Source of the DNA: Verrucomicrobiota bacterium
GTDB lineage: Bacteria > Verrucomicrobiota > Verrucomicrobiia > Opitutales > Opitutaceae
DNA: 64,000 nt
Reading direction: 5' to 3'
NCBI GenBank assembly: GCA_016235555.1
Contig: JACRKC010000099.1
Coordinates: 1-64,000 of the forward strand
The translations under genes and the position numbers were made by a program. The notes beneath the pieces are model-generated. The model was not told where the DNA came from, did not search any database, and saw only the letters and a program-made list of their open reading frames with translations. Below, one piece after another: positions 17,700 to 54,319 of this stretch; position 1 is the stretch's first letter, and each line of letters opens with the position of its first letter.

Positions 17700-18998
17700 C
17701 TACCGGCGGGCAAGACTGGCCAGCAACGCCTCGGCGCAGGCGTGCGCGAAGGTGGGGTCGTTGATCTCGACATCGAACTCGCGGACGGGGATGGCGGGGC
17801 GGAGATGCTTCTTCAACGAGGCGAAGAGCGCGGCGTCGGCTTCCGGCGAGTGGAAGGGTTTTCCGGGTGCGCTGATCACGCTGATGGCGCGGAGCGGGAG
17901 GAGGACGGTCACGGGCGCGGTGTAGCGGTTGAGTCTTTCGGCGATGATGCGGCCGAGTTCGGTGCACTCTGCGGGCGTGGTGCGCATGAGAGTGACTTGC
18001 GCGTTGTGCTGGTAGAACGTCCGGCCGGCGAATTTTGCGGGCACGGTCGATGGCTCGCCGAAGTTCACCATGTCGAGGCAGCCGGGTGTGACGATGGCGG
18101 GGATTTTCGCTTTCGCGGTGGCGTCGAGACGCTCGGGGCCGGCGGTGAGCACGCCGCCCACCAACTCGTCGGCCCACTCGGTCGTGGTGATGTCGAGCAC
18201 ACCGGCGACGAGGCCGCTGGCGATGAGCGACTCCATCGCGCGACCGCCGTTGCCCGTGGCGGCGAAAACGAGCACCTCGTAGCCGGCGGCCTCGAGGATT
18301 TTTTTGGCGTCGGTCACGCACGCCGTGGTGTTGCCAAACATGCTGGCGACGATGAGCGGTTTGTCCGGAAGGTCGGGACGGCTCTCCGAGCCGTCCGCGG
18401 CTGCGCCAGTGGTTTCGCCAACGGGGCGGACGGCTCGGAGAGCCGTCCCTACCGTGGCGGCGCGCGTTTCGGCGGCGGTCACCATGCCGCAGATTGCACC
18501 CGCGGCGTTCTCGAAAATCACTCGCGACACGCGGTTGAGCCCGGAGACATCGACGATCGCGGGCATCATCGTGATGTCGGCGGTGCCGACGTAAGGTGCC
18601 ACCTGGCCGCTCGCGAGGGTCGAAACCATGAGCTTCGGAAACCCGATCGGCAGGGCGCGCATCGCGGCGGTCGCGATCGCGGTGCCGCCGCCACCGCCGA
18701 GGGAGACGATGCCGGAAATTTTCTTCTCGGTGGCCAGCCGGGCGACCACCGCGGCGGCGCCGCGCGTCATGAGGGCGACGCATTCGCCGCGATCGCGACG
18801 GGCGAGAATTTCGCGCCACGCGGGATCGCCGGCGGCGGCGAGTTCGTTGGAAGGAATGTCGGGTGCGAGGCCGGGCTCACCGAGGCAACCGGCGTTGATG
18901 AGGAGCGTCGCGAAACCCCGGGCGCGGATCGCCTCGGCGAGGAAGGCGTGCTCCGGGCCTTTCGAGTCGAACGTGCCGAGGATGGCGATGGTGGGCAT
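17700..18998 (-). CDS. Tm-1-like ATP-binding domain protein (UPF0261)
   Basis: 432 residues homologous to the N-terminal half of the plant virus-resistance protein Tm-1 and to bacterial UPF0261. Recognisable parts are TIAILGTFDSKGPEHAFLAE at the start, VSLGGGGGTAIATAAMRALP (nucleotide-binding glycine run), VSTLASGQVAPYVGTADITM, ASMFGNTTACV and TTEWADELVGGVL. The bacterial role is unknown. The C-terminal TIM-barrel half of Tm-1 is represented by a separate gene in the same unit (24113-24994). Residues about 182-209 (VGTALRAVRP to GSESRPDLPDKP) are encoded by a REP palindrome and have no counterpart in the family as I know it. It is last in the minus-strand unit, 100 bp after the ThuA protein. 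Confidence 0.88.
   Translation of the reverse strand: MPTIAILGTFDSKGPEHAFLAEAIRARGFATLLINAGCLGEPGLAPDIPSNELAAAGDPAWREILARRDRGECVALMTRGAAAVVARLATEKKISGIVSLGGGGGTAIATAAMRALPIGFPKLMVSTLASGQVAPYVGTADITMMPAIVDVSGLNRVSRVIFENAAGAICGMVTAAETRAATVGTALRAVRPVGETTGAAADGSESRPDLPDKPLIVASMFGNTTACVTDAKKILEAAGYEVLVFAATGNGGRAMESLIASGLVAGVLDITTTEWADELVGGVLTAGPERLDATAKAKIPAIVTPGCLDMVNFGEPSTVPAKFAGRTFYQHNAQVTLMRTTPAECTELGRIIAERLNRYTAPVTVLLPLRAISVISAPGKPFHSPEADAALFASLKKHLRPAIPVREFDVEINDPTFAHACAEALLASLARR
18371..18453. repeat. REP-like pair inserted in frame in the Tm-1-like gene
   Basis: Left arm GGTCGGGACGGCTCTCCGAG and right arm CTCGGAGAGCCGTCCCTACC; 28-nt arms with a single mismatch. The minus-strand reading begins GGTAGGGACGG, so one outer end carries GTAG. 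The open frame of the gene runs straight through. Confidence 0.85.
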
Positions 18999-49903: not shown

Positions 49904-49974
49904 AGGGTGTTCGCTGCCTGCGGCAGGGCGGTCTGTGACCCGCTCTGCGGACGGGGAAGAATTTTCGAACGCAA

Positions 49975-49998
49975 GGGCAGGTTAAAGACCTGCCCTAC
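49975..49998. repeat. Single REP hairpin giving the 3' end of the DUF2264 gene
   Basis: GGGCAGGTTAAAGACCTGCC then CTAC, which on the minus strand starts GTAGGGCAGG. On that strand it encodes the last residues SRAGL and the TAA stop of the DUF2264 gene. Related pair at 59108-59177. Confidence 0.75.
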
Positions 49999-51973
49999 TT
50001 TCTGGGAGCGACCAGTGGGAGATTTCCCAGGGGCCGAGTTTCGGGTGCGTGAGTTTCCAGACGCCGGCGGTGGCGGAGATGATTTGCCATGGGGCGGACT
50101 CGGCGCGGTCGGTGCCGGACCACGAGAGCGCGGCGAGCGTGACGGGCGAAGTGAGGCGGGCGGTTTTGGCGACAGGCGTGACGTGGTAGGGCGCGGCGAC
50201 GTGGCGGCGTTCGGCGGTGTCGTCGAGGCGTGTGTCCCATTCGGTGGTGGTGAGGCCGGTGAGGGGTTGAAGGACGGTGCCGCGGGAGTCGGAGGAAAAA
50301 TAGGTAGGGGCGGCTGTCCCAGCCGCCCTGGGCTGTGGTGTGGACTGGAACTCAGGCCGGCTGCGGAGAGCCGGCCCCACCTCCGTGAGCGGCAGCGCGA
50401 AACCGCCGACGCGGAGCACGACGGGCTGACGCGGGGTGACGTGGTGGACGTGGAGGAGCCAGCCGGCGCGCCAGAAGACGAACGACTCCACGCCGGTGTT
50501 CACCTGGCCGGTTTTGAAGCCGAGGTTGTAGGTGTAGCCGAGATGCGACTCGTCCATCTCCACGGGCACGGTCGAGTGGCGGCCGAAGATGCGGCCGTCG
50601 TCGAGTTGCGCGGTGAGCGCGCTGTCGAAGGAAAAGTTGGTGATCTCCGGGAACGCGTAGGTGAAGTGGACGCCGGTGCGGTAGGAGAGTTTGGACCATT
50701 TCCACGCACCGTAACGGAGCTGCGTGTTGCCGACCATGGAGCCGGCGTTGAGGATCTCGATGTCGCCGGTGGGCGTGCTGCGCGTGACGAGGCCGGGGGC
50801 GCGCATGACGTGGACAAAACCGCCGGGGCGCTCGGCGGGCAGCGGCTGCTCGGGGGCGGTCCAGAACGCGTGCGCCGGCGGCAGGAGGAGCGGCGTGAAA
50901 CCCTTCGCGGCCCAGTAAGGAGAGGCGGCGCACGAGTAGGGCTCCATGATCTTGTCGAAGCGATCGGTGAAGCCGAGGTTGAGGCAGCCCTGCTCCTGGT
51001 AGATCGGGCGCGAAAGGAAGAAGTCGAGGTTGCGCGTGCAGAGGCGGCGCAGCATCCCGGGCGCGAGCTCGGTGGCGTTTTCAGCGAGGGCGAGGCCGAA
51101 GACGTTGAGGCAGTTGAAGCGGTAGCAGATCGAGCGACCGAAGGCGGGGTGCTCGCCGCTCGCGGCGAAGAAGTGCTGGTAGTCGCGGGCGTAAAGCCGG
51201 CCCCATTCGCGCCAGCGCGTGGCGCGCGCTTCGTCGTCGGCGCCGTGAAGGTGCGACCACATCAGGCCGTAGAAATGGAAGGCGTAGGCGTTGTAGTGAT
51301 CGTAGGCTTGGTTGATGCCGTCCTCGAACCAGCCGCCGCCGCGGTGCATGGTCTCGAGCTGGTTCAGGTGGGCGGTGATGACGGCGCGATCGGTGCGGTG
51401 GGCGTAGCCGTGCTGCCCGAGAAACTCGAGGATGTGCACGGACATGAAGAGGTGGTTGTTGTTGACGATGCCGCCGCCGCGGCACGACGCGAACCAGCGC
51501 GCGACCTGATCTTTTTCGGCGCGGGTAAGCGGGTCCCAAAGATCGCGCGGCGCGAGTTGGAGCGCGATCGACATGAGGCCCATCTCGACGTGGTGCTGGT
51601 GGAAGCTGGCGTCGGGGCCCCAGTAGTGCGGCGACGCGGGGTCGCTGCCGGCGACGAGGCCGGCGCGGAACCACGCGGCGATGGCCTGGCGAAACGCGTG
51701 GTCGTCGGGGTAAGTGGCACGGGTCTCCCGACCCGTGGGGTTGGCGGGTGCTTGGGATTCACGGGTCGGGAGACCCGTGCCACTTTCACTTTGCAGATAA
51801 AACGCGGCGAGGGTGAGCGGACGCGCGAAACTCTCAAGGCGGTCGGCCTGCTTGTCGTGGTCGCTGGCGGGACCGGCGATGGCGAGGTCGGCGGCGCCGG
51901 GGCGCATGAGCGCGGCGAGCGGCTCCAGGAGTTTCTTCGCGGCGAGCTGCCAGTGGCGGTAGGGCGTTGGCAT
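49982..51973 (-). CDS. DUF2264 family protein carrying three REP-derived segments
   Basis: 663 residues, no export signal. DUF2264 proteins are alpha/alpha-barrel enzymes related to unsaturated-uronidase and hydrolase families: MPTPYRHWQLAAKKLLEPLA, HYWGPDASFHQHHVEMGLMS, FASCRGGGIVNNNHLFMSVH, GGWFEDGINQAYDHYNAYAF and the late WRAGWLLHVHHVTPRQPVVL. Two stretches are encoded by palindromes and look foreign: residues about 64-87 (SGTGLPTRESQAPANPTGRE) and about 531-557 (VGPALRSRPEFQ to AAPTYF). A third hairpin supplies the C-terminal residues and stop. The reading frame is intact, so the protein is probably made. Role inferred as oligosaccharide breakdown. Confidence 0.83.
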   Translation of the reverse strand: MPTPYRHWQLAAKKLLEPLAALMRPGAADLAIAGPASDHDKQADRLESFARPLTLAAFYLQSESGTGLPTRESQAPANPTGRETRATYPDDHAFRQAIAAWFRAGLVAGSDPASPHYWGPDASFHQHHVEMGLMSIALQLAPRDLWDPLTRAEKDQVARWFASCRGGGIVNNNHLFMSVHILEFLGQHGYAHRTDRAVITAHLNQLETMHRGGGWFEDGINQAYDHYNAYAFHFYGLMWSHLHGADDEARATRWREWGRLYARDYQHFFAASGEHPAFGRSICYRFNCLNVFGLALAENATELAPGMLRRLCTRNLDFFLSRPIYQEQGCLNLGFTDRFDKIMEPYSCAASPYWAAKGFTPLLLPPAHAFWTAPEQPLPAERPGGFVHVMRAPGLVTRSTPTGDIEILNAGSMVGNTQLRYGAWKWSKLSYRTGVHFTYAFPEITNFSFDSALTAQLDDGRIFGRHSTVPVEMDESHLGYTYNLGFKTGQVNTGVESFVFWRAGWLLHVHHVTPRQPVVLRVGGFALPLTEVGPALRSRPEFQSTPQPRAAGTAAPTYFSSDSRGTVLQPLTGLTTTEWDTRLDDTAERRHVAAPYHVTPVAKTARLTSPVTLAALSWSGTDRAESAPWQIISATAGVWKLTHPKLGPWEISHWSLPESRAGL
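50303..50381. repeat. REP-like pair in frame in the DUF2264 gene (C-terminal part)
   Basis: Left hairpin GGTAGGGGCGGCTGTCCCAG with CCGCC, right hairpin GGCCGGCTGCGGAGAGCCGG then CCCCACC. Outer ends carry GTAG and GTGG. It covers residues about 531-557. Confidence 0.8.
51713..51784. repeat. Perfect 25-nt inverted repeat in frame in the DUF2264 gene
   Basis: AGTGGCACGGGTCTCCCGAC begins the left arm and GTCGGGAGACCCGTGCCACT ends the right arm; the 25-nt arms are exact. Total length 72, a multiple of three. Outer ends carry GTGG. It encodes 24 residues of the host protein. Confidence 0.88.
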
Positions 51974-53146: not shown

Positions 53147-54319
53147 TCATGCGGGCGGGAGGCACTCGAGGATTTCGGCGCGGGGCGCGGGTGCAAACGT
53201 CACGGGACCGAGGGCGGCGGGAAGGAAGATTTTGTCGAACTGGCGCAGGCGGTGCGACTCGCCGCCGGCACTGACAGTGACCTCGCCGGCGGTGACGATG
53301 GCGATGGCGGCGCTGGTTTCATCCTTAACCACGGGCGCGGCGAGGTGGGACTTCCGCACGCAGAAACAATCGGTTTGCGCCGGCCCGATGAGTTCGTCCT
53401 GCCAGGAACCGGGGGCGAGTTCGCGCAGACGGCGCGGCCGGCAGCGCACGCGCGTGTCGAGGTCCGCGGCGGTGAGCGGGGCGAAGTTGAAAATATCCAG
53501 GCAGAAATCGATCCCGCGGTTCATGAAGCGGGCGGACTCGGGCAGCACGTAGCCGGCGCGTTCGAATTCGAAGCGGACGACGAGGTCGCTGGGCTCCTGG
53601 ATCTCCACCATGAAGACGCCCGCGCCGAGGGCGTGCGGGGTGCCGCCGGGGATGATGAACGTGTCGCCGGGGCGGACGGGGATTTTGTCGAAGCAGGCTT
53701 CGATGGCGGCGAGGTCCTGCGCCTCGATCATGGCGCGGAGGGCGGCGCGGGAGGGCGGGCGTTGGAAGCCGACGTAGATGTAGCCGGTCGGTTCGCCCGG
53801 AGCGGCGGGGTTCGGCGACCCCGCCCTACAACTCAGGACGTGGTAGGCTTCGGTCTTGCCGCTGGGGGCGGCGAGGAAGCGCTGGGCGAACTCGCGCGTG
53901 GGATGAACCTGGAAATGCAGACGCGTGCCGCTATCCAGGAACTTCACGAGGAGCTGCGGTTGCGCGCCGAGCTTCTTCACGTGGTCGGCGCCGAGGAAAT
54001 ACGCGGGGTCGCTGGCGAGGAGTGCGGCGAAATCGCGCGGGGCCGGGTCGTGGCCGACGAGCACCTGCGAGATGCCGGGAGAAGTTGAGGGATGAGAGTT
54101 GAGGGTTGAGAGCGCAGCCTCCGGCGGATTCACGGCGCGGGTGGTCGAGGCGATCCAGTCCTCGGCGAAATGGGTGTCGGCGGGGGCGGACGCGGAAAGC
54201 GCGTTGGGGTCAACGCGCTCCACCGGCTGCGCGGCGAGCGCGTCGAGCGTGCGGCCGCCGGGGTAGGTGCGCCAGACGCGGTTGGGCGGGAGGCGGAGGA
54301 TTTTGCCGCGGTGGTTCAT
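53147..54319 (-). CDS. Class I mannose-6-phosphate isomerase-like protein
   Basis: 390 residues, cupin-type zinc isomerase. Motifs: QLLVKFLDSGTRLHFQVHPT (zinc ligands Gln and His), GDTFIIPGGTPHALGAGVFM and EIQEPSDLVVRFEFERAGYV. The start ATG overlaps the stop of the sodium symporter by four bases (ATGA), so the two are translationally coupled. Two odd inserts: ALSTLNSHPSTSPG near residues 68-82, from a CTCAACxCTCA-type run, and SCRAGSPNPAAPGEP around 160-176, encoded by a REP hairpin at 53802-53829. It may act on fructose/mannose phosphates or another sugar phosphate supplied by the symporter. Confidence 0.85.
   Translation of the reverse strand: MNHRGKILRLPPNRVWRTYPGGRTLDALAAQPVERVDPNALSASAPADTHFAEDWIASTTRAVNPPEAALSTLNSHPSTSPGISQVLVGHDPAPRDFAALLASDPAYFLGADHVKKLGAQPQLLVKFLDSGTRLHFQVHPTREFAQRFLAAPSGKTEAYHVLSCRAGSPNPAAPGEPTGYIYVGFQRPPSRAALRAMIEAQDLAAIEACFDKIPVRPGDTFIIPGGTPHALGAGVFMVEIQEPSDLVVRFEFERAGYVLPESARFMNRGIDFCLDIFNFAPLTAADLDTRVRCRPRRLRELAPGSWQDELIGPAQTDCFCVRKSHLAAPVVKDETSAAIAIVTAGEVTVSAGGESHRLRQFDKIFLPAALGPVTFAPAPRAEILECLPPA
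53802..53829. repeat. Single REP hairpin in frame in the mannose-6-phosphate isomerase gene
   Basis: GCGGCGGGGTTCGGCGACCC then CGCCCTAC; on the minus strand it begins GTAGGGCGGGG. It encodes part of SCRAGSPNPAAPG between the conserved TEAYHVL and TGYIYVGF. Confidence 0.75.

Follow-up and report, generated by a model that had tools for sequence, protein, structure and literature searches.

Translated REP elements in a DUF2264 gene of a Verrucomicrobiota bacterium and their apparent recurrence in the same protein loops across genera

A single DUF2264 gene in a 64,000-nucleotide stretch of a Verrucomicrobiota genome carries three REP segments that are translated as part of one open frame. The stretch, referred to here as the window, spans positions 1-64000 of contig C65 in an assembly of 8.03 Mb and 140 contigs. 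With a probability of roughly 0.85, we propose that GTAG/GTGG REPs, two of them as REPINs, entered the gene in the lineage of the window organism, hitting it nearly at random and surviving in frame in a flexible loop or tail. The REPs were most likely moved by REP-associated tyrosine transposases (RAYTs). Such enzymes would move REPs or REPINs into genes at roughly random positions, and the majority of the copies that land in coding DNA would disappear again. Purifying selection would spare the in-frame copies that sit in permissive loops or in the tail, where they may be close to neutral.

The same analysis suggests a wider pattern. Proteins of the Opitutaceae probably possess recurrent landing loops for REPs, in which a few loops of housekeeping and metabolic proteins have been colonised independently, genus after genus, by each genome's own repeat family. 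If true, these loops would amount to a natural insertion mutagenesis that maps loop permissiveness, and they would give mobile DNA a way of writing new protein sequence.

Results

Three REP segments are read in one frame

The gene and its inserts are listed in Table 1. All five units in the gene are short palindromes with a GTAG or GTGG foot, as in GTAG-type REPs. Segments 1 and 2 are opposite-orientation doublets and thus have the form of REPINs, while segment 3 is a single unit.

Table 1. Position of the DUF2264 gene and its REP segments in the window
Feature	Coordinates	Strand	Description
DUF2264 host gene	49982..51973	-	663 aa, one open frame; Pfam PF10022
REP doublet (REPIN) 1	51712..51785	.	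oppositely oriented GTGGCACGGGTCTCCCGACCCGTG units; net +69 nt vs L010
REP doublet 2	50304..50380	.	two different facing hairpins, of GTAGGGGCGGCTGTCCC and GTGGGGCCGGCTCTCC type; net +39 nt vs L010
Single REP (segment 3)	49974..49998	-	GTAG-foot hairpin; encodes last residues and TAA stop

An earlier note, made from the letters of the window, had described three REP-like segments in this gene, all keeping the frame. Both statements hold, as the units belong to GTAG/GTGG-foot families that are repeated in the genome, and all segments are read in the single frame. The exact 25-nt inverted repeat that it placed at 51713-51784 is indeed perfect, with arms that are one base longer (51712-51737 and 51760-51785; 26 nt each, 100% complementary, 22-nt spacer). 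Its two-hairpin pair near 50303-50381 proved to be two different hairpins that face each other. The hairpin said to supply the last residues and the stop codon does so: the gene ends in AGT AGG GCA GGT CTT TAA, and the final residues and the stop lie within the REP.

The orthologue of highest identity, L010 (78%), lacks segments 1 and 2 and has a different C-terminus, SLPALT instead of SLPESRAGL. Both internal sites are hence found empty, as the note had proposed to check. The second doublet measures 77 nt with a net gain of 39 nt, so about 13 native codons were replaced rather than the doublet being plainly added. The segment-1 insert occurs in 0/53 other non-redundant orthologues (of 94 loci, 37 duplicates and 4 short ones were removed, which left these 53 and the window gene). 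One of them, L059, has a different REP-like hairpin with a stem of 7 in the same loop. We also looked, in L010 and the orthologue set, for the same residues in repeat-free orthologues, and this is not what they contain.

Two further family-supported REP units lie in frame in the window, one at 18428-18452 in the ORF of a UPF0261 protein and one at 53804-53829 in another ORF. A conserved operator-like palindrome of another type (e.g. TTTGTAACGTAATACGTTACAAAT in L052) is located directly after the DUF2264 stop and before the next gene in L049, L050, L051, L052, L053 and L056.

The host gene looks functional

The host protein scores 311.6 bits against Pfam DUF2264 (PF10022; cut-off 25) and is thus a member of this family; an NCBIfam search with the protein assigned no family. 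Its AlphaFold model has a mean pLDDT of 84. In a search with this model, the best structural matches for the barrel part are a GH154 beta-galactosidase and a beta-D-glucuronate dehydratase. Polysaccharide lyases rank next and cover more of the host chain. The predicted function is like that of a sugar enzyme.

Comparison with L010 yields a dN of 0.106 and a dS of 0.71, and dN/dS against four other orthologues is 0.14-0.20. The host protein deviates at 1/137 columns that are conserved to at least 95%, and nine other orthologues deviate at 0-3. These values led us to reject decay elsewhere in the gene, which the note had named as a possible objection, and the coding sequence is under purifying selection.

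In the model, insert 1 lies between helices 40-61 and 89-110, with residues 67-87 below pLDDT 50. Insert 2 connects strands 527-529 and 557-559 (block means 65-78), and the tail that contains segment 3 averages 48. The model thus places insert 1 in a disordered loop, insert 2 in a loop between strands and segment 3 in the tail, in line with the fold check that had been suggested. Because these parts are flexible, the host gene still looks functional despite three inserts. The note had called the insertions tolerated, perhaps selected. Tolerance is supported by the empty sites, the purifying selection on the gene and the low-confidence loops and tail. Selection for the inserts finds no support, because copies in relatives decay with the frame open (second arm in L067, first arm in L051).

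REP families are mainly extragenic

Hairpins with a GTRG foot and a stem of at least 8 number 271 in a 1.264-Mb sample of the genome, compared with 23 in one shuffled copy. Of the single feet, GTAG accounts for 129 and GTGG for 142, and control feet for 28 to 87 each. Plain hairpin counts within the window proved uninformative (19 real, 10-14 in three shuffles). A BLAST search of the whole genome gave, among the matches listed, 87 for segment 1 and 53 for segment 2, each including the query itself and with many places listed twice, once per strand. The segment-3 family was observed in the 1.264-Mb sample. All three segments are supported by families and occur in many copies in the genome. In the sample, each of the eight largest REP families comprises 20 to 48 units.

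Requiring family support retained 178/289 clusters. At least one flank is scored noncoding, by our own codon model and threshold, in 139 of these; 15 lie between divergent flanks, 6 lie between same-strand coding flanks that do not form one frame, and 18 are in one open coding frame. The families are therefore mainly extragenic, and the DUF2264 copies are exceptions. An initial tally of 76 in-frame clusters was discarded because it included chance hairpins (a stem-7 scan gave 397 real and 65 shuffled), and was replaced by the 18 family-supported ones.

These 18 clusters are spread over 13 ORFs, which by Pfam include UvrA (four clusters), a topoisomerase, an SNF2 protein, MnmA, LeuRS and the UPF0261 protein of the window, among others. 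They form 8 same-ORF pairs; length-weighted placement gives 0.28 on average, and 0/20,000 simulations reach 8. Multiple REPs per gene are therefore a pattern of tolerant genes. Three segments in one gene, which the note had found striking, do exceed uniform placement, but are not unique, given the four clusters in the UvrA ORF.

RAYT genes as candidate movers

The genome contains ten Y1 transposase matches. One of these genes, L047, is open over 240 aa and sits between doublets of the insert-1 family. It scores 76.9 bits against the REP-associated tyrosine transposase family NF047646, just under the cut-off of 80, and L045 and L046 score above it. Among the families of the three segments, a flanking RAYT was seen for that of insert 1, with L047 just under the cut-off. 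Each of the RAYT genes L045, L046 and L047 (contigs C79, C139 and C109) has REP units of a different family on its flanks, and the three so represent separate REPtrons in one genome.

By analogy, RAYTs would have moved the REPs of the DUF2264 gene through a putative cleavage and strand transfer. This would be consistent with work on TnpAREP (PMC8266576) and on REPINs (PMC3116915). TnpAREP of E. coli is reported to cut at CT dinucleotides, with the foot as supposed guide (PMC8266576).

REPs recur at site 2 of DUF2264 orthologues

REP doublets are present at site 2 in L049, L052, L051 and L102 of genus g63 and in L065 and L067 of g59; L014 (g21) has a single REP unit in the same loop. The stem sequences differ among the inserts of the window gene, g63, g59 and g21. 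A scan of 54 DUF2264 coding sequences for stems of at least 8 gave 13 hits, every one of them located at site 1 or 2. The LPLxx codons immediately precede the foot in 7/7 doublet carriers, the window gene included.

When the insert columns are excluded from the tree, the site-2 carriers fall in scattered places. The nearest relatives of the window gene (L010, L054 and L060) all lack the doublet, as does L072, which is nearest to L065 and L067. We infer at least four independent entries at site 2, namely in the window genome, in g63, in L065/L067 and in L014. L050, in which native-looking codons fold in a REP-like manner, is not counted as an independent event.

We then consider the repeats of the host genomes. 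For a shared pattern, we counted 114 copies in G176, 23 in G175, 16 in G094, 12 in G092 and 5 in G000. It is present in 1 to 8 copies in G161, G174, G169 and G171, and in 0 copies in G025, G096 and G020; the reversed pattern, used as a control, gives 0 in all twelve genomes. The L014 unit has 47 occurrences in G020, compared with 2 control hits. The units of L051 and L102 were left out of these searches.

The orthologue set contains some unexpected records. L069, from a record named Aporhodopirellula aestuarii and thus a planctomycete by name, is 62% identical and nested among the others in the tree, a possible transfer between phyla. L076 and L091, from MAG records titled Akkermansia muciniphila, carry the DUF2264 gene and group with an Opitutaceae-type genus; their titles may be wrong.

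In other proteins, too, REPs recur within the same loops

Five further REP-bearing genes were taken from the window genome: UvrA, which has the most clusters and a published precedent, and four others from the list of 13 ORFs. Genomes were aligned for 30 of 49 with a match for UvrA, 36 of 55 for MnmA, 30 of 56 for the topoisomerase, 30 of 48 for LeuRS and 30 of 44 for SNF2. In MnmA, six other genomes, each from another genus (L227, L234, L237, L239, L244 and L285), have REP hairpins of several sequences confined to a single stretch of 13 residues. Of these, L285 is a biased hit because its locus was fetched for a match split near the REP loop; L285 and L286, two of the six extra MnmA loci, were chosen in this way. 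In UvrA, one loop contains REP hairpins in four other genera (L196, L202, L203 and L208), and inspection by eye shows weaker traces in L206, L214 and L216. The matching SNF2 loop has them in two others (L322 and L337). The remaining two genes gave matches below the stem-8 rule: for the topoisomerase only L258, whose unit is of the same family and has decayed, and for LeuRS only L297, with a doublet of 7-bp stems (length by eye).

Over the six genes in other genomes, 26/33 hits that pass the rule (stem of at least 8) lie within segments occupied in the window genome (margin of 10 aa), compared with 3.0 expected by length. The 33 are not independent events: each doublet gives two hits, sister genomes are among those counted, and two of the hits, L050 and L221, are in doubt; the latter (UvrA, one mismatch) is scored inside a segment and is probably due to chance. 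Chance alone would give 9.7 hits in 533 kb, against the 7/33 seen outside the occupied segments. The signal is carried by DUF2264, MnmA, UvrA and the SNF2 protein, with the topoisomerase and LeuRS as weaker matches.

In sequences without REPs, the DUF2264 loops rank 2 and 3 of 32 for length variability when five distant orthologues are left out, and the MnmA loop ranks 1 of 4. That these loops are among the most length-variable is one of the points in favour of loop tolerance. For UvrA, two sites take ranks 1 and 2 of 38, in a ranking from which the main UvrA loop is absent. The third UvrA site (16 of 38) and the topoisomerase REPIN loop (17 of 27) speak against our explanation; tolerance is therefore not always visible as length variation. 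That the same loops are reused by differing repeats suggests that protein structure is the main factor deciding whether an insert survives in a gene.

As an additional observation, contig C1 of G003 carries REPs in both the UvrA and the SNF2 loop.

Discussion

The precise entry at site 2 poses the question whether RAYTs have a local target preference and hit the same codons repeatedly, with loop tolerance being secondary. In the seven doublet carriers, which represent at least three lineages, the foot comes directly after LPLxx and is preceded by AG in 7/7, and CT cleavage guided by the foot would agree with such a preference. We nevertheless consider it unlikely as the main cause, since UvrA entry points differ by several codons within the loop, L014 enters site 2 at a different codon, and the upstream bases show only a weak bias in 247 REP units that lie outside in-frame clusters (most common base 45% G at -1, 33% A at -2). 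Still, the entry point after LPLxx is tighter than loop tolerance alone suggests, and tolerance does not explain it fully.

The identical position and doublet architecture in several genera could also stem from a single ancient insertion at site 2 that was inherited and lost many times, and the weak support for branching inside g63 (46, 47) leaves some room for this. We regard this scenario as very improbable, as the carriers are scattered in the tree, and insert-free lineages from clades far apart have a native motif close to RSDPG in common, and repeated loss would not bring such a motif back. Moreover, the inserts resemble the REP families of their own hosts, judging by the pattern-rich G176, G175, G094 and G092, the insert-free G025 and G096 without a copy, and the L014 unit in G020; this last argument is weakened by G169, which is doublet-free yet has 5 pattern hits. 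Finally, the inserts may be favoured, with the peptide or the mRNA/DNA hairpin being useful to the gene. Clustering in few genes and the reuse of loops across genera would fit, and Di Nocera et al. considered it unlikely that REPs had reached repair genes fortuitously (PMC3733652). Sequence, length and number of the inserts differ between relatives, however, copies decay, and most sampled orthologues do without them, which makes a benefit highly improbable. Near-random insertion by RAYTs followed by survival in permissive loops thus remains our preferred explanation. Because one protein occurs in nature with no, one or several inserts, the question whether they are neutral, targeted or useful is now testable.

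Intragenic GTAG REPs were reported in 2013 by Di Nocera et al. (PMC3733652), who found in-frame copies in many genes of several bacteria and the largest number in Opitutus terrae, where GTGG is the foot of a major family. Both O. terrae uvrA genes have double insertions, REP ends supply stop codons, and flexible linkers or loops are already proposed there for in-frame REPs. The DUF2264 inserts resemble these elements in their GTAG feet, in occurring as singles and dimers, in their in-frame copies and in the REP-supplied stop. What we add to that report is a DUF2264 gene from another genome that holds three REPs, together with its empty sites in relatives, a model of the protein structure and the loop reuse seen in a comparison across many genera. 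While in-gene GTAG REPs are thus known, their recurrence in the same loops across genera looks new: we found no report of it in the open-licence papers searched. The nearest is a remark on recB of two Xanthomonas species, the sole one on a shared site in the sections of PMC3733652 considered here, which place the REPs of other genes at different sites. The 2013 listing went genome by genome; many genera are now sequenced, which allows filled and empty sites to be compared directly.

Like the REPINs of Bertels and Rainey (2011; PMC3116915), the doublets are REP pairs in opposite orientation that would act as a mobile unit, and the family of doublet 1 flanks the RAYT gene L047. Unlike those REPINs, which are described as extragenic, the doublets here are translated. 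The sections of PMC12306157 considered here make no mention of in-frame copies. As with Rickettsia palindromic elements, palindromic repeats are kept in frame inside many proteins (PMC3733652). Going by that paper's description of these elements, RPE-4 and RPE-6 are set apart by their CGTC tag; this tag was not found in the units of the DUF2264 gene, whose feet are GTAG or GTGG.

Besides the REPs, an AT-rich repeat is seemingly translated in several proteins (peptides such as ENRKSKIENPKS and NQKSEIENQK), namely in the UvrA loop of L199, an SNF2 ORF (C82:29986-32463) and a UvrA ORF (C108:102228-108311), and may represent a second class of in-gene repeat.
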